From the IMG/VR virus record IMGVR_UViG_3300044825_001965, positions 1 to 21,240 of that record: 21,240 nucleotides of DNA; one strand, given 5' to 3'. Under the pieces are notes generated by a model. The model saw nothing but the letters and a program-made list of their open reading frames with translations. It was not told where the DNA came from and searched no databases. This DNA comes from a virus. The position numbers and the translations under genes were made by a program. Shown here in pieces: positions 11,278-20,686 of this stretch; position 1 is the first letter of the stretch; each line of letters starts with the position of its first letter.

Positions 11278-14200
11278 TTATAAGCCTTGAAGGGTTTTGA
11301 CTTGGTTCGCCCGAGAGTTCACCGTGTCGAATGATTGGAGTGTCAAGACGGGCACGCGGTTCGAGAGTTTGTCCAGCGCCAGCCCGAGCAATTCCAGTTG
11401 TGCCGTGGATTGCGCACCGCCCGCGTTGGTCATTGGGGCCACCACGCCGCCCGTGGCCATCAGCGGAACGCCGCCGCCGTATTGATTGATTGCCGACAGG
11501 GCCGCCAGTTTGCCCGGGTAATTACGGCCCGCCTGTGCCATTAGTGCCGACCTAAACCGCGAGGTCGAGCGCTTATTCACCACAACGGACGACCCATCCG
11601 CCAATCGCTCAAAATATTCGCCGCCTTCGACGTTAACACGGCGGCCAGATAGGCGCGTATTGATGCCGCCGCCAGCGTGCGAGGGGCCGACAAAGATACC
11701 GTGCTCAGCTTTGGGGCTGTCGAAGCCGTCGCCAATACGGCCACCGAGGGCGTATTCCTGCGCCGCAATGGTGGCAATTTGTACGGCTGTCGTGGCCGCC
11801 GTAAGCGCCGCGGCAATAATGGAAAGAGGAAACGGGGTCGTGGCAAATACCTGAGTAATTGCCAGCGCCGCGTTCATAATAGCCTGTGCGATATCGCGCT
11901 CTTTTTTCTTTTCGAACGCCTCACGCTCCAACTGCTCACGCTCCTGTGCGAATTGCTCCCGAACATCCTGTTCGGCCTGCGCGTTGCCCTCAACTAATTC
12001 GAGTTGTTGCGCCTCTTGTTGTTCAAGTAATTCCAACTGCTTATCCAAACGGCGCTTATCGTTTTCTTCGTCCAGCTTGAAAATAGCGTCGTTTGCATCT
12101 TTGGCCAACTTAAAAGACGCGTCTATCAGTGCTTTTTTAAGCTCTTCCCCACGCTTTTTTTTCAATTCTTCAATTTCTATAAACGCATCCACATCACGTT
12201 TCCCACCGTCCTGCACGACTTTGGATTCTTGGTCTTGAGCGCTCTGCCTATTAAGCAGCATACTGTAATTCATATCGTTAAAGTCTTTTACGACCTTTTG
12301 TATACTTGTTTTGTCCGTGACGGCCGTAACAACCACCTCGGGGGCGACCTGTTTGAACAATTCTTCGAGCGCCTTTTCCGTGCTTGCTATTTCGCTTTTG
12401 AGCGATTGATAATTTTTCAGCAGCTCGGTCGGGATTAGGCTCTTATCCGTGTACGCTTTAAGTTGCGCCTCTACCTTTGCCAGTTCCTCCCGCAAAAAAT
12501 TAAGGTTGCGCCGCTCGATTTCGGCCCGCTTTGCCTCCTCTTCTGCGCGCTTTTTGGCCTCGGCCTCGCGCTTTTTGGCCGCTTCGGCTGCTGCTTCTTT
12601 GTCCTTTTCAAGTTGTTCGAGGCGCTCGGCCTCCTTTTTAGCCAACTCTTCGGCCAATGCAGCCGCTGCCGCTTCCGCATCCGCCTGTTTTTGTATCTGC
12701 TCCGCCGCCTGCTTCGATGCCTCCGCCTGTTTTGCTTTGGTTGCGTTGTACGCCTCCGCAAACTTGTCTATTAGGTTTACATTGTTTTGCTGCCGGGCCA
12801 CCAGTTCGGCCTGCAAACGGTCGGCCTCGGCCGTGATTTCCGCACCGCCGTTGGCAAGCCCAAACGAGATAAACTCCGCCGCATCCTTAAATGTGGCCTT
12901 CGTGCGCAGCCCGAATATTTGCACCTTGGTAATTGCGTCCTTGAAAAGGTTGCCCAAAAACTCGGGGAACGAGCTGAACACCGCCGTAACGCCTGCCCAA
13001 ACAGCGGGCAATTCGCGAAGCGCAAAGGTTAAAGCCCTAATTGGCCCAAAAACAATAAATTGCAAAGCTTTACTTAACTTCGTGTAAGCATCTGCAAAAA
13101 ATTGACCTGCATCACCAGCATCGCCAAGGCCGCCAGTCAATTCACCAACTGCATCCGCTAAATCTTTGAATGTGTCAAAGGCTCGTTGCCCAGCATCAAA
13201 AAGGGCCTCGATTATAGGCAAAAAGAATTGACCGATAACCGTCAGCGCATTATTGAACCGATTAGTTAGGTTTTCAATCCGCGCAGACAGCGTCTCCTGC
13301 TTCGTGGCCGCTTGGTCGTATGCCGTATTAGTGCCTGTAATGGCGCTGGTAAGCTTTGGAAACTCATCTGCATACTTCGTTAGGGTTATCGCCGCGTTGA
13401 TGTTCTCCGTGCCAAATACGGCGGTTAATCCAGCGGTGTCGCCCGTTAGCTTTTTGAGCTCGTTTAGCTTTTCGCTCAGCGGCACCGTGGTATCCCGCAA
13501 CTTTTCCAACGATACGCCGCCGCGCTCAAACGCCGCCAGCGCATCCTTTGATAGCGTTTCTTCGGATGCCGTGCCAATCTTCAAAAGAACGTTTCGGAGC
13601 GCCGTGCCCGCCTCGCTTCCCTTGATGCTATCCTTTGCCAACAACTGAATTGCGGCGGTCGTTTCTTCGAGCGACGTTCCCGTAATTTTGGCCGCGCCGC
13701 CAGCCTTTTCGAGCGCCTCCGCGGCCTCTAATGTAGTCGCGCTGCCTTCCTTTTCGCCAGCGGCCAACGTGTTGATAACGCGGTTTGCCTCCGTGGCCTC
13801 CAGCCCAAATAGGTTAAGCGCGCCCGTGACCACTTTGGCCGCGTTCGTCAGGTCTGTGCCAGCGGATTTCGAGAAGACAATAACCTCTTTTGATACGGCT
13901 TGCAGCGCCGCTTGGTTCTTCAGTAACTGCGGAGCCGCGCTGCCTACGATGGTAAACGCGTCCGCGATTTCCGTGGACGTGGACACGATTTCCGCGCCGC
14001 CGGACAGGGTAATAACCTGCAGTTCGTCAATGCGCTGTTTGAGCCGGTCGGCTTCTTCACCAGATACGCCCAGCGTGGCCGAAAGCTGCGCGAACGCGTC
14101 TTCAAACGCCATTGCGTTCGATACGCCTTTGCCTATCACAATCGCCGCCGCTGCGATACCAGCCGTGGCCGCCATTGCGCCAGCACCAACGCCGCCAGCG

Positions 14201-14808
14201 GCAGCACCGAGGCCTTCCATCCCAGCCGTGGCAGATGCCGCGGGGCCTTTGCCGATGGAGCCCAGACCGCTTGCAAGGTCTTGCAGCGGAGTCATAAGCC
14301 CCTGAACGTTGCCGATAAAGCCACCGAGCGGTCCGCCAAGGCCTTGTAAGCCCTGCGCAAAAGCACCAAACCCGCCGCCCGGATAGTTGCCAACGTTGCG
14401 CTGAAACTGGCCCATCGTGCTGTCGAGTTGCTTCAGCTCCATATCCAGCGCCTGAATACGTTTAAGCGATTCCGCGCCGCCCGGGCCTTCGCGTTCGGCT
14501 TGGGATAGCTCCTTATACGACCGCCGCAACCGCGCCAGTTCCGCGTCCAGCTTACGATATGATCCCTCGGCAAAACCCACTGTTTCTTTCGTGAGCTTTT
14601 GCTGCTCTTTAATCGTGGCATTGATGGCTTTCTGCTCCCGCTTATTGTTTTCCAATTCGCGGTTCAGCTTCGTGTACGTTGTGGGGTCGGTGGCTGACCT
14701 CATTTCCTTTTGTAGCTGCGTGGCCTCACGACGAAGCAGACCCAGTTGGTCCACCAAATCGCCGACGCCCTCGGCCTCTACGCGGAAAAATACTACTTGT
14801 TCTGCCAT
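11278..14808 (-). CDS. Phage tail tape measure protein
   Basis: A 1176-residue protein, by far the longest in the window. It sets tail length, fills the tail tube and is ejected with the DNA. The N-terminus is coiled coil (about 20-130) followed by MGQFQRNVGNYPGG, a motif seen in tape measures of Bacteroidota phages. An Ala/Gly-rich hydrophobic stretch (about 201-230) leads into a TP901-type core (about 235-500: AFEDAFAQLSATLGVSGEEA). More hydrophobic helices lie near 520-610, a Lys/Glu/Ala coiled coil at about 690-790 and another at 880-975. A hydrophobic pair follows at about 975-1020. The C-terminus has LGGRIGDG and GIFVGPSHAGGGIN followed by VEGGEYF, a common tape-measure ending. No lysozyme or peptidase domain is evident. 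Confidence 0.93.
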   Translation of the reverse strand: MAEQVVFFRVEAEGVGDLVDQLGLLRREATQLQKEMRSATDPTTYTKLNRELENNKREQKAINATIKEQQKLTKETVGFAEGSYRKLDAELARLRRSYKELSQAEREGPGGAESLKRIQALDMELKQLDSTMGQFQRNVGNYPGGGFGAFAQGLQGLGGPLGGFIGNVQGLMTPLQDLASGLGSIGKGPAASATAGMEGLGAAAGGVGAGAMAATAGIAAAAIVIGKGVSNAMAFEDAFAQLSATLGVSGEEADRLKQRIDELQVITLSGGAEIVSTSTEIADAFTIVGSAAPQLLKNQAALQAVSKEVIVFSKSAGTDLTNAAKVVTGALNLFGLEATEANRVINTLAAGEKEGSATTLEAAEALEKAGGAAKITGTSLEETTAAIQLLAKDSIKGSEAGTALRNVLLKIGTASEETLSKDALAAFERGGVSLEKLRDTTVPLSEKLNELKKLTGDTAGLTAVFGTENINAAITLTKYADEFPKLTSAITGTNTAYDQAATKQETLSARIENLTNRFNNALTVIGQFFLPIIEALFDAGQRAFDTFKDLADAVGELTGGLGDAGDAGQFFADAYTKLSKALQFIVFGPIRALTFALRELPAVWAGVTAVFSSFPEFLGNLFKDAITKVQIFGLRTKATFKDAAEFISFGLANGGAEITAEADRLQAELVARQQNNVNLIDKFAEAYNATKAKQAEASKQAAEQIQKQADAEAAAAALAEELAKKEAERLEQLEKDKEAAAEAAKKREAEAKKRAEEEAKRAEIERRNLNFLREELAKVEAQLKAYTDKSLIPTELLKNYQSLKSEIASTEKALEELFKQVAPEVVVTAVTDKTSIQKVVKDFNDMNYSMLLNRQSAQDQESKVVQDGGKRDVDAFIEIEELKKKRGEELKKALIDASFKLAKDANDAIFKLDEENDKRRLDKQLELLEQQEAQQLELVEGNAQAEQDVREQFAQEREQLEREAFEKKKERDIAQAIMNAALAITQVFATTPFPLSIIAAALTAATTAVQIATIAAQEYALGGRIGDGFDSPKAEHGIFVGPSHAGGGINTRLSGRRVNVEGGEYFERLADGSSVVVNKRSTSRFRSALMAQAGRNYPGKLAALSAINQYGGGVPLMATGGVVAPMTNAGGAQSTAQLELLGLALDKLSNRVPVLTLQSFDTVNSRANQVKTLQGL

Positions 14809-14810
14809 AG

Positions 14811-15317
14811 TTATATTCGTTGAAGTTCACGGTTTAGTTGAGGCGTAAACGCCGCCGTTATGGTTGCATTTGCAGCCGCGGCCAGTTGTTGGCCTATGTC
14901 ATTGCCGACGTTGCCAAAGGCCGCTTGGATTGCCCCTGTGCGCTTACCGTTGGACGTGTAAAGAAAGGCCGCGGGCGTTGGACTACCATACTTCACTTGG
15001 TTCACGGCGGTCGCAAACGCGGCGCTGCGCGCTTCCTTGTCGGATAATCCTTTGGCCTTCCACCATTCAAACAGCCCCGCGACCTGAGCGCCGGCCACGC
15101 GGCTGTGGCGCGTGCGGCGGTTTATGTAGTCGATATAATCGAGGCCGCTCACCTCGCCGACGATTTTTCGGCCCTCGAGCTTTACCTCGACTTTGATACT
15201 TTGCTCCAATGCGCCCGTGTTGCGGTGGCCCTGCGCCTCCAATTCGATAAGCAAGTCCACGGCAGCATCGTTCAGCGCCGTATTGAGGGCCGCGATAAGG
15301 TCAAGCGTCAAGTCCAT
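14811..15317 (-). CDS. HK97 gp10-like tail completion / head closure protein
   Basis: A 168-residue protein two bases upstream of the tape measure gene. It shows the HK97-gp10 plan: an N-terminal helix (about 1-30), then NTGALEQSIKVEVKLEG with the typical TGAL..SI turn near 34-41, a beta strand pair (IVGEVSGLDYIDYI), and a helical C-terminal half. Proteins of this family cap the tail tube or join it to the connector. At 168 residues it is somewhat longer than the usual 110-150, owing to a helical insertion (about 80-110) and an extended C-terminus. Its start overlaps the end of the 58-residue gene by 17 bases. Confidence 0.7.
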   Translation of the reverse strand: MDLTLDLIAALNTALNDAAVDLLIELEAQGHRNTGALEQSIKVEVKLEGRKIVGEVSGLDYIDYINRRTRHSRVAGAQVAGLFEWWKAKGLSDKEARSAAFATAVNQVKYGSPTPAAFLYTSNGKRTGAIQAAFGNVGNDIGQQLAAAANATITAAFTPQLNRELQRI

Positions 15318-15478: not shown

Positions 15479-17587
15479 TCAGTTCTTTTTTAATAGTATA
15501 AATTGTGATTGACCTGTGTCCAATGCGCTGCCCAAAGCAATGGTCGTAAAAATATACTGGGGCTGCGTCCAGTCCAGCGACAAAACAGTAGCCGCACCGT
15601 TAGCTGTGGCAATATCCGTTACCGCGCTCAATGCGGTATTTAATACTTGCGTTTGGCTTGTTTGATTGATAACAAAAAGGTGACGCAAAAACTGATACCA
15701 AAGCACGGCGGATGTCAAACTAATGTTGTAAATCGTGGTCATACCTACCAAAGATAGGGACGAGTTAACAGCAAGCCTAATAGCCATACCGCCCGCGGTG
15801 CCGACCTTGGTAAATCTTATTGTGGCCTCAACAATATCGCCCACCGCAAAAGTGTTGGCCGGTATTAAATAGGATTGCAGAATGGTCTGCGCTGTGGTGC
15901 CCGTGACCGATTGCGGCACGCCGTTTTTGTACACCGTGGGATAGGGCGGCGTTACAAATTGTCCATACCCCGCCGACTGCCACGTCATAACCTGCCCCGC
16001 TGCCTCGGAGTTGGTTTGATTCATGTTGTGCAGGTCGTCGAACCCAATCGCCTCGCCGACGCGCACGAAGATTTTGCCGTGGTTTTGGTGGGCATACTCC
16101 ACGTAGCCAATGGCCACTTTGAAGTTTGGAGCCGTGGGCCGCACGTTGGTAAGTCCGCCCGGCGTGGTCGGTGACAGCCAAAGTTCATCGCCGTCGTTCC
16201 AGGTTTGACCCTGCAGCGTGCCCGTGGTATTTACGTCAACTATTTGCCCGACCAAGGTTATAAATCCCTCTTGGTTGACCGCTATGTTTTCCGTTACTAT
16301 ACCCAGCGTGCCTTTTGCATTTGCGGCAGTATCAGCCTGCGCAAAATCCACCGCCAGCCGTTGGCCCTGAGCATCGTCAACCCGCACGACCGCATATCCC
16401 GCTTGTGTCAAATTGCTTCCCGTCTTGTTGACCACGCGCGCCACGATTTCTTGGCCGACCTGCAAATTCACCGCGCCGCCCTTCAATCCCAAATCCAATG
16501 TGCCGTCCGTGTCGTTCCATTGCATCCGCGCCACGGCCCCGACGTTGGCGGGCGTCGTGTCAAAATCAATGGAGCCGACGTTTGTTAGGTCGTTGCCGTC
16601 CATATCGATATCCAAACACGCGGTATTGCCCTCAGTCAAAATATCGCAAAGCGGAACGATGGGGCCCGGAGGCCCGGGAGGGCCCGGGTCGCCTTGCGGC
16701 CCCTGAGGCCCGGGGTCGCCCTGAATACCCTGCGGCCCTTCGGGAATCTCGAAATCAAAGATTGCATCGGTGTTGGTACCGACGTTAGTAACCGTCGCGG
16801 GGTCGCCGTTGGGCACCGTTGTAACCGTGCCGACCTCGATGGTCGCCGCGTCGCCCGGGTCGCCCTGCGGCCCAGCAGGGCCCGTGATGTCGGCCAACGA
16901 AACAAGGTCAATCCAATCTACTTCACCAACGTAGCGGTACTGTATGTAGGTGCCGTTGTTGCGGATTTCAATTTCCCGGCAGCACGGCGGATAGCTCGGC
17001 GGATCCACCTGCGCGGGCGCGGAGTAGTCGGCACACGGAGCCATGAGAGGCACCTCAAAGCGGAATGAAGCGCCAACGTGGCGTTGTACCGTGCCGCCCG
17101 TGAGCGGGGTCACGGACACGGCGGTAAACGCGGGAATGTACCTGTCGAGCGGCACACCGTTTATCGTCGTTTGACGGGCGACCGACAGTGTGTTGTAGCC
17201 AATCTGAATGCAGTCGGCAACTATCTGGTCAACCGTGCGCGGTGCCGTCTGCGAGGTTGCATCGTAGGGCAATATCACATCCAACACAGACATACTAAAC
17301 GACAAACGGTATTGCGACATAGTGCCGCTGCCCTGAGTGACTTCCATCAGCACCATCGGGTGGGCCAGCGTCAATTCCGCGCCCTCGTAACCGCTTTCCG
17401 CATACGGCCGACTAAAAAACGTGCCCGCCTCCGCGTCCACCTGCGTTTTTCCGCCATTGTTCGATTGCAATTCGCTTGCAAAATTGACCGTGGCAAACGT
17501 GTTTGGCCGTAGGTTTTGCGCCTCCAGCACCAGCGGAGCGTTCTCGACGGCCAGTGCAAAGGCCCTGTAAATGTCTATAATCGTCAT
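15479..17587 (-). CDS. Collagen-like tail fibre / receptor-binding protein
   Basis: A 702-residue protein starting at ATG 17587; an upstream in-frame TTG at 17596 is less likely. Residues 1-190 form a mixed domain (IIDIYRAFALAVENAPLVLEA and later VQRHVGASFRFEVPL) that probably attaches to the virion. CCREIEIRN then leads into WIDLVSLADITGPAGPQGDPG, a short collagen-like run (about 236-246). A 37-residue interruption follows, then a longer Gly-X-Y run at about 284-309. Residues about 360-520 match a repeated beta module of phage fibres (LGIVTENIAVNQEGFITLVGQ, DELWLSPTTPGGL, KVAIGYV). The C-terminal part is likely the trimeric receptor-binding tip. Collagen repeats trimerise fibre shafts. It follows the chaperone-like gene across an AT-rich intergenic region. 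Confidence 0.75.
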   Translation of the reverse strand: MTIIDIYRAFALAVENAPLVLEAQNLRPNTFATVNFASELQSNNGGKTQVDAEAGTFFSRPYAESGYEGAELTLAHPMVLMEVTQGSGTMSQYRLSFSMSVLDVILPYDATSQTAPRTVDQIVADCIQIGYNTLSVARQTTINGVPLDRYIPAFTAVSVTPLTGGTVQRHVGASFRFEVPLMAPCADYSAPAQVDPPSYPPCCREIEIRNNGTYIQYRYVGEVDWIDLVSLADITGPAGPQGDPGDAATIEVGTVTTVPNGDPATVTNVGTNTDAIFDFEIPEGPQGIQGDPGPQGPQGDPGPPGPPGPIVPLCDILTEGNTACLDIDMDGNDLTNVGSIDFDTTPANVGAVARMQWNDTDGTLDLGLKGGAVNLQVGQEIVARVVNKTGSNLTQAGYAVVRVDDAQGQRLAVDFAQADTAANAKGTLGIVTENIAVNQEGFITLVGQIVDVNTTGTLQGQTWNDGDELWLSPTTPGGLTNVRPTAPNFKVAIGYVEYAHQNHGKIFVRVGEAIGFDDLHNMNQTNSEAAGQVMTWQSAGYGQFVTPPYPTVYKNGVPQSVTGTTAQTILQSYLIPANTFAVGDIVEATIRFTKVGTAGGMAIRLAVNSSLSLVGMTTIYNISLTSAVLWYQFLRHLFVINQTSQTQVLNTALSAVTDIATANGAATVLSLDWTQPQYIFTTIALGSALDTGQSQFILLKKN

Positions 17588-17596
17588 ATAAAGCAA

Positions 17597-17706
17597 ATTT
17601 TTAGACGCTTTTTAAACGCTTTTTTAGATAATAAACGCATATAAAACGCTAATATATAGGCATTTACAACCGTATAAATTAGTTCTGGTTAAAAGCTTTT
17701 TAGACA
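17597..17706. promoter_or_regulatory. AT-rich intergenic island with repeated GCGTTTA-type units
   Basis: This is the longest strongly AT-rich non-coding stretch in the window, between the end of the chaperone -1 frame and the fibre start. On the minus strand it repeats GCGTTT or GCGTCT within A-tracts four times (17603-17650), including AAAAAGCGTTTAAAAAGCGTCT. TAAAAATTTG just before the fibre ATG resembles, but does not match exactly, the -7 box TAnnTTTG. It probably holds the fibre promoter and perhaps a regulator site. Confidence 0.45.
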
Positions 17707-17963
17707 TTATGGGTGTTCGGTTGCGATTGCGATTAGTATTGCGTCAAAGAACGGAGCGTCAAGCATCATTTGCCACGTTTGCCACGCCCCTGTCTTCCAA
17801 AGGCGGCCATAAATGGATTGCTCGCGCCCTTTGCCTTCTTCGTGCCTTTCCCGCCAGTTGCGGATGCGGATTTGTTCGGGGCTTTCTTTGAAGGTCGGCG
17901 GCTTTGGGGGCTTGAACCAGTTGCCGAAGATGCCGTCGCCGCTGAGGGCAGCGATGTAAGAAA
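17707..17963 (-). CDS. -1 frame extension of the tail-assembly-chaperone-like gene (frameshift product)
   Basis: If the ribosome slips back one base on the T9 run (17969-17961), the frame continues for 84 codons to TAA at 17709-17707 instead of ending at 17766. The encoded segment starts SYIAALSGDGIFGNWFKPPK, is rich in Trp and charged residues, and ends in a hydrophobic LDAPFFDAILIAIA stretch. It has codons ending mainly in G or C like its neighbours, so it looks like true protein. Fusion to the first 241 residues would give about 325 residues, mirroring gpG and gpGT of lambda-type tail assembly chaperones. An alternative is a homopolymer base-call error, in which case ten T residues would make the long form the only product. 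Confidence 0.65.
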
Positions 17964-18683
17964 AAAAAAGTTGCGAATATCGAGCGCGACCGATAGCGGC
18001 ATTTGCTCAATTTCGGTGATGCGCGCCGCGTGCCAATGGTCGAAAGCTTCCTGAGTCGTTGGCAGCGGTTCGTTTGGCGAATTGCGCAGGAACAGCGCCA
18101 TTTGTGCGAGGAAGATACGCGTCGGGGTCATATACAGCTCGGAGGCGTTTATCGCCGCCCGCTCCTCTATTACCCGCTCGACCTCTTTGGCCAGTTTGAA
18201 TTCCAAAAAGTTGTTGTAGTACTCTTCCAGCAGCAGCGACTGGGCGACCTGCTTAACGCTGAATCCAGCGCCTTTTTTGTCGCGGTAATTGACCGCCTGC
18301 TCACACAAATACCACGTTTTGCCGCCAAACTCAAACTCGTTGTCGGGCTTTTTGTGCTCGTACTTTACCATACAGTTGGCGATGCCCTCAACGGCGCCCA
18401 TAAGCATTGCCGCGATGTCGGTCTCGCTTTCGCCGACCAGCACCACGTCCAACGGATTTTTCCCGTCCATATAAGGACGGAGCGACCACGCCAGCGCGTT
18501 TAGGTAGGCGTGCATAGGCAGGTCGCCCTGTTTGCCCTCCGCCTCGTTTTTGATGGCCTGCATCATCGAGTAATACGCGATATGCGCCTCAAAAAAGGCC
18601 CCAACCGTCACCTCGGAGGCGTGGTTGGGGATATTGAATGTTAGGACGGAGCCCTCGGGCCCGACCGCTTTAAGCACCCGCAT
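17766..18683 (-). CDS. Putative tail assembly chaperone (zero-frame product)
   Basis: A 305-residue zero-frame product starting at ATG 18683, which overlaps the previous stop by 14 bases; an earlier in-frame start would lie deep in the upstream gene. The N-terminus, VLTFNIPNHASEVTVGAFFEAH, has the IP..seVTvG.f form of chaperone-type phage proteins. The body to residue 238 is helical. After FFF at 239-241 the zero frame becomes a low-complexity Ser/Ala/Lys/Gly tail (ASSATGSS, KKAPNKSASATGGKG) ending GKRGK. This tail overlaps the alternative -1 frame. Such chaperones coat the tape measure and recruit tube subunits. Against this reading, it is separated from the tape measure by three genes, which is unusual. 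Confidence 0.6.
   Translation of the reverse strand: MRVLKAVGPEGSVLTFNIPNHASEVTVGAFFEAHIAYYSMMQAIKNEAEGKQGDLPMHAYLNALAWSLRPYMDGKNPLDVVLVGESETDIAAMLMGAVEGIANCMVKYEHKKPDNEFEFGGKTWYLCEQAVNYRDKKGAGFSVKQVAQSLLLEEYYNNFLEFKLAKEVERVIEERAAINASELYMTPTRIFLAQMALFLRNSPNEPLPTTQEAFDHWHAARITEIEQMPLSVALDIRNFFFLTSLPSAATASSATGSSPQSRRPSKKAPNKSASATGGKGTKKAKGASNPFMAAFGRQGRGKRGK
17961..17969 (-). promoter_or_regulatory. Slippery sequence for programmed -1 frameshifting
   Basis: On the coding strand AAC is followed by nine T residues and then CTT. In the zero frame this reads AAC TTT TTT TTT CTT, containing the canonical heptamer T TTT TTT on which both tRNAs can re-pair after a -1 slip. It lies exactly where a long, protein-like -1 frame takes over. 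Confidence 0.6.
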
Positions 18684-19131
18684 AAGCCTCGACGATTTTG
18701 GCGATGATCGTAGCGGGTTTCGATGCCGGGCCGACCGACAGGCCAAGGTCGGCGGCCATTCCACGAAGCGCCACGACCTGCTCGGGCGTAATTGCCTCGA
18801 CACTTTCGGATCCGATTTGTTGGAGGACGGCGGCGGTGTCGTAGGTCGGGACGATGCTATCTATTTCCACAGGTTCCGCACCGCTTTTTTTTTGCGGCGT
18901 TGGCTCGGTAACGGGCGCGGCGGCGCTCATCGTGCGGCGGAAGGTCGTTTGTTGGCCGCGTGGGGCGACAAAATCGAACGACCCGCCAAACCCACAGGGG
19001 CCAGCGTACTGCGGCATATAGACCCGCATAAGGCGAATGAGTTGGTTTGCGTAGTCAACGCGGATTTCGCGCTCCTGAACCATAGCGTCAAGGGCGGCTT
19101 TGAACTCGGTAATGGCTTGTTTGTGCTTCAT
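18670..19131 (-). CDS. Hypothetical protein with helical C-terminal SAP/Rho-N-like segment
   Basis: A 153-residue protein read from ATG 19131; a TTG at 19140 is less likely. It begins 21 bases after the terminase stop. Residues about 1-45 are helical with charged faces (MKHKQAITEFKAALDAMVQ, ANQLIRLMRVYMPQ). A linker rich in Pro and Thr follows (about 65-90). The last 40 residues, ITPEQVVALRGMAADLGL followed by IIAKIVEAYAG, look like a small two-helix SAP or Rho-N type unit that may bind nucleic acid. I do not recognise the full-length family. Its place between large terminase and the chaperone-like gene suggests a packaging or assembly role. Confidence 0.6.
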   Translation of the reverse strand: MKHKQAITEFKAALDAMVQEREIRVDYANQLIRLMRVYMPQYAGPCGFGGSFDFVAPRGQQTTFRRTMSAAAPVTEPTPQKKSGAEPVEIDSIVPTYDTAAVLQQIGSESVEAITPEQVVALRGMAADLGLSVGPASKPATIIAKIVEAYAGA

Positions 19132-19152: not shown

Positions 19153-20370
19153 TTAAACAGATATTGTCGTGTTGTGTCGTGGCCTTGCGGATAAATTCAT
19201 AACGGCCCAATACCGGACAGCGTCGAGCGCGTGGTCGTCCGATGCGCTCGGCTCCTGAATTGTCTTTCCCGTGGCCGCGTGCAGCTTCCATTTGTACTGG
19301 CGGAACTCGCGGTTTAGATTGTAGCCAATTGCCCGAATAGGGTACTGCGCCAGCGTCTGGATGCCGTACAGCACGGAGTTGGCGCCCTTCTTTGCGGCGG
19401 CCACGTTGTAGCCATAGCGCCGCAGCTCGGTTATCATTTCGGGACGTGCGCCGTCCGCCCAAATGGGCAGGCGCTTGGATACGTTTAACTCGGCCAGTCG
19501 CTTAACAAGGGCCGTCATCGTGAGTCCGCTCTCGTAAAGTAACTCTTTTGCGTACACTATCTCGCCGTGTTCGCAGCACTCCACCAGCGCCAGCGGGTCG
19601 GTGTAACCAAAGTCAAGGCCGTAACCTAAACGGCGACCGCCATCGGGGAAGGTCGGCCACGTCTCGACGCGGGAATAGATGAGATTTTCGGTTCCGCCAG
19701 TGCGGCCCTCCGCATAGACACGGCGGAAATTCTCATCCCGGGCCGCGCGTTCCTCAATCGAGGCGCGCACCTGCTCGGGCAGATACGGGTTATCCAGATA
19801 GGTAGTTCGGCAAAACGTCCCATCCGCCAGCGCCTGCGCCTTATACAACTCGTGCGCCCAGAAAGGCGTGTCGGGATTGTAGTCGATAATCGCGGCGACC
19901 GAGGTACGCATCTTCAGCTGCGAAAAAATCTCGTGCGAAATCCCCTGCGCCTCGTTTACAAACAGAATATCCCGCTTGCCTGCCTTTGCGTCCTGCGCCG
20001 TTTCGTAGCTGGTAAACTGGATTTTAGCGCCGTTCTTAAACAAATACTCTTTGTCGGTTCGGTGATAGCGCTCGATGCCCTCGGCGAACGTTTCCGCGAT
20101 GCGCTCCGCGTCGAGCAAAGCGCCCTTCTTCAGGTTCGGCACGTCCTGCCCCACCACCGTTATCACGGTCGGCTTGCCGTTGACGGTCGGATTGTTGACG
20201 CAAAACGCAAACAGCGCTTGGATTGTGGAATAGGTCTTGCCCGACGATGTGCCGCCCTGCAGAATAAGTACCGGCACGGCTCCATATTGCCCCACCTGCG
20301 CCGCGGCGATGCGCTGCCACACCCAGCTAAATATGGGCGACGTCGTAATGTGTATTTTGCCGTTAGTCAT
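19153..20370 (-). CDS. terL: Terminase large subunit (packaging ATPase and nuclease)
   Basis: A 405-residue protein starting at ATG 20370; a GTG one codon upstream is possible. The start overlaps the small-terminase-like stop by 8 bases. The ATPase domain has Walker A GGTSSGKT (39-46), Walker B DILFVNE with catalytic Glu (134-140) and a coupling motif DYNPDTP (163-169). The RNase H-like nuclease has acidic residues in LDFGYTDP (Asp253), IWADGARPE (Asp306) and SDDHALD (Asp378, Asp379, Asp383). The motif forms and length fit the PBSX-type large terminase family. It translocates phage DNA into the prohead through the portal and cuts the concatemer. Catalytic residues all appear intact. Confidence 0.95.
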   Translation of the reverse strand: MTNGKIHITTSPIFSWVWQRIAAAQVGQYGAVPVLILQGGTSSGKTYSTIQALFAFCVNNPTVNGKPTVITVVGQDVPNLKKGALLDAERIAETFAEGIERYHRTDKEYLFKNGAKIQFTSYETAQDAKAGKRDILFVNEAQGISHEIFSQLKMRTSVAAIIDYNPDTPFWAHELYKAQALADGTFCRTTYLDNPYLPEQVRASIEERAARDENFRRVYAEGRTGGTENLIYSRVETWPTFPDGGRRLGYGLDFGYTDPLALVECCEHGEIVYAKELLYESGLTMTALVKRLAELNVSKRLPIWADGARPEMITELRRYGYNVAAAKKGANSVLYGIQTLAQYPIRAIGYNLNREFRQYKWKLHAATGKTIQEPSASDDHALDAVRYWAVMNLSARPRHNTTISV

Positions 20371-20686
20371 CACTGGCCAAATTAGGCGGCGGCGCTTGTA
20401 TTACGACTTGCAGCGGCACGATATTACCGTCTTGGTCTGTCGTGTTCAGCGTTTGCGCGGGCTTACCATATGCACGGTCGAGCAGCATATCAGCGGCCTT
20501 CAAATTGCCCTGTACGGCTAACTGGCGTAGCTTTTTCAGCACCGCATCCAATGCCGTCACGCCGTCCTTTTCATCAGCCAAAACAGCGGCCACGGCCTCG
20601 CGGAGGTCGGGCATTTTGGGCCGGCCCTTGTTGCCAACGTTGCCAGTTTTGAGTTTGCCTCCGTTGCGGCCTTGTCGCATTTCCAT
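20363..20686 (-). CDS. Putative small terminase-like / DUF5681-type DNA-binding protein
   Basis: A 107-residue protein starting at ATG 20686 (a second ATG two codons on). A longer in-frame reading is rejected because it would run through the tRNA. The N-terminus has basic RQGRNGGKLKTGNVGNKGRPK, like the GGRPKGSKN start of DUF5681 proteins. The C-terminal helices (AVLKKLRQLAVQGNLKAADMLLDRAYGKPAQ) match that family, where a helical unit ends in DRAYGKP. Immediately upstream of and overlapping the large terminase, it is the natural candidate for the small subunit that recognises the packaging site. It is shorter than typical small terminases. Confidence 0.7.
   Translation of the reverse strand: MEMRQGRNGGKLKTGNVGNKGRPKMPDLREAVAAVLADEKDGVTALDAVLKKLRQLAVQGNLKAADMLLDRAYGKPAQTLNTTDQDGNIVPLQVVIQAPPPNLASDD

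Follow-up and report, generated by a model that had tools for sequence, protein, structure and literature searches.

A conserved run of nine T's as a candidate slip site for RNA polymerase in a putative two-product tail-assembly chaperone gene

Among phage genes, those for tail-assembly chaperones are the standard textbook example of ribosomal frameshifting. In lambda and many other phages, gpG and gpGT are made by ribosomal -1 frameshifting (PMC5009743). Two products are also obtained by programmed transcriptional slippage on a nine-base A/T run, as in Thermus dnaX (A9) and the Shigella mxiE/spa genes, where A9 yields a shorter product and a U run a longer one. Bacterial RNA polymerase, whose RNA:DNA hybrid measures 9-10 bp, shows efficient slippage on runs of nine A or T (PMC1088944; PMC5009743), and the Escherichia coli enzyme favours poly(T) for slippage (PMC6260861). 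The gene described here lies in a 21,240-nucleotide stretch (the window) that covers positions 1 to 21,240 of the IMG/VR virus record IMGVR_UViG_3300044825_001965. It resembles the lambda gene in that an N-terminal domain is common to two predicted products, in that reading in the -1 frame brings in a second domain close to the 3' end, and in its location within a tail gene cluster. It differs from lambda in the use of a nine-base homopolymer as the slip site, a feature of both gene families described below, in its position near the terminase large subunit gene (TerL) and two genes before the tape measure gene, and in having no sequence match to chaperone families. The nine-base A/T run in a two-product gene is common to this locus and the Thermus and Shigella systems, and the shorter product at A9 and the longer one at a U run would also have their parallel here. 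In contrast to those systems, it is from conservation that we infer slippage here, and the genes belong to a phage tail region and keep the nine-base run across very divergent members.

The coordinates of the features are given in Table 1. The nine T's at 17969-17961 were confirmed from the letters of the window as TTT TTT TTT in the zero frame, and the figures originally put forward for the -1 frame (84 codons, an excess of 59 bases over the zero-frame stop, and a fusion of the two frames of 325 aa) all agreed with ours; on the minus strand, this frame is free of stops over 18006-17707. Two A/T runs of at least nine bases were seen in the window, where a first-order Markov model expects about 0.8, and both are kept in homologues, the second being an A9 in the adjoining upstream gene. 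A terminator role for T9 was rejected, as no conspicuous stable hairpin precedes the run. Over 17766-17960 on the minus strand, past T9, each of the three forward frames runs for more than 60 codons without a stop; the +1 frame after the run showed a pN/pS of 1.40, without sign of selection.

Table 1. Features of the window around the candidate slip sites (positions refer to the window).
Feature	Position	Strand	Remarks
T9 slip site (candidate)	17969-17961	minus	AAC TTT TTT TTT CTT; zero-frame phase 0
Zero-frame ORF, 305 aa	17766..18683 (ATG 18683, stop 17766)	minus	N-domain 1-241 and Ser/Ala/Lys-rich tail
-1 frame extension, 84 codons and TAA (17709-17707)	17707..17961	minus	C-terminal domain of the predicted 325-aa fusion
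Upstream gene, 156 aa	18670..19140	minus	N-domain, variable linker and conserved C-terminal domain
A9 run in linker of upstream gene	18885..18893	minus	second candidate slip site
-1 frame after A9, KRCGTCGNR and stop	18857..18886	minus	conserved CxTC tail
Terminase large subunit (TerL)	19153..20373	minus	PHROG set as in family 2
Collagen-repeat tail/fibre protein, next gene	15479..17584	minus	start overlaps -1 stop in most relatives
HK97-gp10-like neck/tail component	14811..15317	minus	weak match
Tail tape measure protein	11278..14808	minus	phrog_28, E 4e-42

Relatives of the window gene were found in 14 IMG/VR contigs, which together with the window (family 1) give 15 sequences and 12 haplotypes down to about 65% protein identity; searches of the phage collection (isolated phages) and of genome contigs gave no homologue. 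The run consists of exactly nine T's in 15/15 sequences, whereas other homopolymers of the same gene are gained and lost among members. In one member (L004) it is shifted by one base (AAT TTT TTT TTA), through a C-to-T change ahead of the run and a T-to-A change at its end, and its length is still nine. Homopolymers are in general error-prone in sequencing, and the original prediction had allowed for a true run of ten T's, which would make one continuous gene. The 14 separately assembled contigs all have nine T's, and since exactly nine are present across the 15 sequences, T9 is not attributable to a sequencing or assembly error. Against such an error also stand the maintained position of the zero-frame stop and the nine or ten T's of about 140 sequences of a second family (family 2, see below), among them that of the isolated phage P12024S in GenBank, so that we regard it as extremely improbable. 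Long homopolymers also often mutate, and the run could be conceived as a phase-variable contingency tract whose length is altered by replication slippage, switching a single product. This is very improbable as well: the length is nine in 12/12 family 1 haplotypes and in nearly all of family 2, T8 does not occur, in the three cases of T10 the zero frame remains free of stops through the run, and both frames look maintained.

In order to assess selection, pN/pS values were calculated for family 1 in each frame. In the overlap region the -1 frame had a mean pN/pS of 0.34, and beyond the zero-frame stop a value of 0.26. The zero frame had 0.17 upstream of the overlap and 1.23 over the same overlap bases, where pN/pS alone showed no constraint; wrong-frame controls upstream of the overlap gave 1.5-4.0. 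The -1 stop overlaps the ATG of the next gene as ATGA in 12/15 sequences; in the window and its nearest relatives (L002 and L003), a 119-base AT-rich spacer (window 17585-17706) replaces the 4-base overlap. The constraint on the -1 frame and the ATGA overlap with the next start mark the end of this frame as the natural end of the gene, and judged by its substitution pattern the -1 frame is clearly under selection as protein. Conservation of both the T run and the -1 frame in homologues, proposed beforehand as a check, is thus borne out. The zero-frame tail was addressed by shuffling the synonymous codons of the -1 frame in 11 haplotypes. The shuffled sequences often had early stops, and they placed the zero-frame stop near its observed position with P values of 0.08-0.59 per sequence. 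In the real sequences it lies at +201 to +207 in 11/11 haplotypes, with differing stop codons and surrounding amino acids. This maintained position indirectly suggests that the zero-frame tail is probably also used; the evidence is good but not overwhelming, since the haplotypes form about five clades.

A Foldseek search with the model of the window N-domain led to I6R9M9 of Nonlabens phage P12024S, assigned by protein length (175 aa) to P12024S_38. This gene lies directly after TerL and contains nine T's, with a -1 extension of 81 codons past the run. Genes of this type constitute family 2 (phrog_32199 and phrog_38404, both of "unknown function"). A first scan yielded 63 related loci, and in 63 sequences (62 of these loci and the P12024S record) the run was T9 in all but one, which had T10. 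Since one query peptide of that scan spanned the slip site, it was repeated with a profile ending 15 codons before the site, which gave at least 568 related loci. Among the best 80, which were kept, the site was readable in 77 (75 T9 and 2 T10), and two (L124 and L146) stop short of it. In L148 (3390-3470) the slip-site region seems deleted or rearranged, without a run. T10 occurs at this site only in L055 (2902-2911), L150 and L155, where the zero frame stays open across the run, just like that of the T9 members. The -1 extension of family 2 has about 83 codons, closing in a WGWY...EKEK domain, and the T9 is in codon phase 1.

As in the window family, P12024S_38-like genes are TerL-linked, with TerL proteins of both families matching the same PHROGs, and carry an IP..xEITL/VTIG N-terminus and a PL..vl...FF motif at T9. 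An N-terminus IP..(S/N)E(V/I)T(V/L) is common to both families, their PL...FF junction falls exactly at T9, and the junctions MPLSVALDIRNFFF/S and aPLDAVLgSIvFF/LSF (slashes marking the junction) align there in register. The differences lie in the WGWY...EKEK C-terminal domain of family 2, in the codon phase of its T9 and in the absence of significant sequence similarity, also in a profile-profile comparison of the two families. Structure, gene order and motifs make common descent likely, short of proof because profile comparison of the sequences is not significant by itself. A further structural match, R9VW65, was taken by protein length as AGN89393 of Flavobacterium phage 6H, which has no clean -1 site: in this phage (L042, 10352-10927, minus strand) the -1 frame meets a stop just past T_TTT_TTC and is open over a long stretch only after this stop. 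The gene after TerL of Bacteroides phages BU241P1 and BT2 showed no comparable site. From TerL similarity and P12024S we infer a Bacteroidota host for the window phage; the large group of tailed phages with this layout is probably one of Bacteroidota. The exact run, the purifying selection, the stop/start overlap and the layout retained in the distant family strongly support, from sequence, a programmed switch to the -1 frame at T9. The original prediction of a programmed frameshift therefore holds as regards the change of frame, which may take place during transcription, by RNA polymerase slippage, rather than on the ribosome.

Concerning the function of the protein, the AlphaFold2 model of the N-domain (residues 1-241; pLDDT 68.5, pTM 0.67) matched phage proteins without names in BFVD, and annotated tape-measure chaperones appeared as weak Foldseek matches (Scapp, E 0.12; EfaCPT1, E 0.32). 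The PDB fold search gave no matches. The C-domain model was poor (pLDDT 54.7), and a fold search with it gave no matches either. Pfam and PHROG profiles assigned no function to the window gene and gave no match to Pfam tail-assembly chaperones; phrog_166 ("tail protein") was matched weakly (E 0.0027) in family 2 only. The tape measure gene belongs to the same tail cluster but does not follow the gene immediately; three genes had been thought to separate the two, and two were counted (17584-15479 and 15317-14811). The description as tail-assembly-chaperone-like thus agrees with architecture and position, but it finds no chaperone HMM match and is not proven. The missing HMM match, the location near TerL and two genes from the tape measure, and a neighbouring collagen gene that is structural would also suit a true two-product gene for another tail or head-tail component rather than for a virion-leaving chaperone, by either slip mechanism; we consider this unlikely, since the G/GT architecture is a hallmark of tail chaperones and the weak structural matches include annotated ones. 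Our preferred reading, to which we give a probability of roughly 0.58, is that of a putative gpG/gpGT-type tail-assembly chaperone with two products and RNA polymerase slippage as the likely agent. Ordinary transcription and translation would yield the 305-aa form with its Lys-rich tail (gpG-like), and a minority of events at T9 would lead into the -1 frame and to the 325-aa form, whose C-terminal domain is conserved and rich in Trp (gpGT-like). By analogy, the common N-terminal part may bind the tape measure protein, the -1 domain may recruit tail-tube subunits, and the slippage rate would fix the ratio of the two forms.

As to what slips at T9, RNA polymerase would slip on the nine T's and insert a tenth U in some transcripts, which ribosomes would then read normally; one extra U gives precisely the -1 frame. 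The two-product chaperone could instead depend on ribosomal -1 frameshifting, with two tRNA-Phe slipping back on U_UUU_UUU. This has the precedent of gpG/gpGT in lambda and many phages, every member carries the T_TTT_TTT heptamer in its zero frame, and H_HH.U_UU.Y motifs rank with the most shift-prone ones in E. coli (PMC4066793). Since any nine-base run holds an in-frame N_NNN_NNN heptamer, ribosomal slippage keeps a real, if smaller, share of the probability. However, six or seven T's would suffice for it and nine are always kept, across three codon phases (0, 1 and 2), and the heptamer is never replaced by an alternative one. In family 2, a T8-to-C change would be silent in either frame, and the T_TTT_TTC that it left would still be an efficient shift site in E. 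coli (PMC4066793), but this change is absent: both Phe codons of the slip site are TTT in 121/121 sequences (45 and 76), whereas TTC makes up 13-69% at most other conserved Phe columns, although one column off the site has hardly any TTC either (2 in 116). Flanking amino acids account for some of the outer T's of the run. Folding of the downstream RNA into pseudoknot-free structures gave z-scores of -2.2 to +1.5 and no shared structure, and no Shine-Dalgarno-like sequence was seen ahead of the slip site when looked for by eye. RNA polymerase is therefore moderately favoured over the ribosome, as far as sequence can tell, because run length and not the heptamer is constrained, the doubly synonymous change that would keep a good heptamer does not occur, and no downstream structure is shared. 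Elsewhere in family 2 contigs, A/T runs of at least nine bases number 44 against 191 expected, a roughly four-fold shortage, and the deficit grows with run length. This avoidance fits such runs being prone to slip, and replication slippage would lead to the same pattern.

The A9 of the upstream gene behaves similarly. It has exactly nine A's in the 8/8 family 1 haplotypes with the region present, in a linker otherwise variable in sequence and length. The -1 frame past it reaches its stop after 8-9 codons and encodes (K)(R)CxTC(G/P)xx in 8/8 haplotypes, while the zero-frame residues differ. A9 is thus a probable second programmed slip site: as in Thermus dnaX, slippage there would yield a short N-terminal product ending in a CxxC tail in addition to the complete upstream protein. 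Polymerase slippage gains further support from this site, as the feature common to both sites is run length and not base or codon. The fuller proposal, that across a large group of tailed phages RNA polymerase and not the ribosome sets the chaperone ratio on the exact T9, and that in the branch of the window A9 is a second site yielding a short CxxC-ending protein, is tentative, and we place it slightly below an even chance.

In the literature searched, no report of transcriptional slippage of tail chaperones was found, the two terms together retrieving only a general review and frameshift-prediction studies; this absence is no proof of novelty. If a large phage group keeps T9 for its chaperone, the same control of the product ratio may have arisen in transcription instead, with a parallel in dnaX between Thermus and E. 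coli. The slippage idea is directly testable in the isolated phage P12024S with its Nonlabens host. The results also offer a likely role for hundreds of unannotated genes (phrog_32199/38404) and a warning that annotation pipelines split or truncate them.
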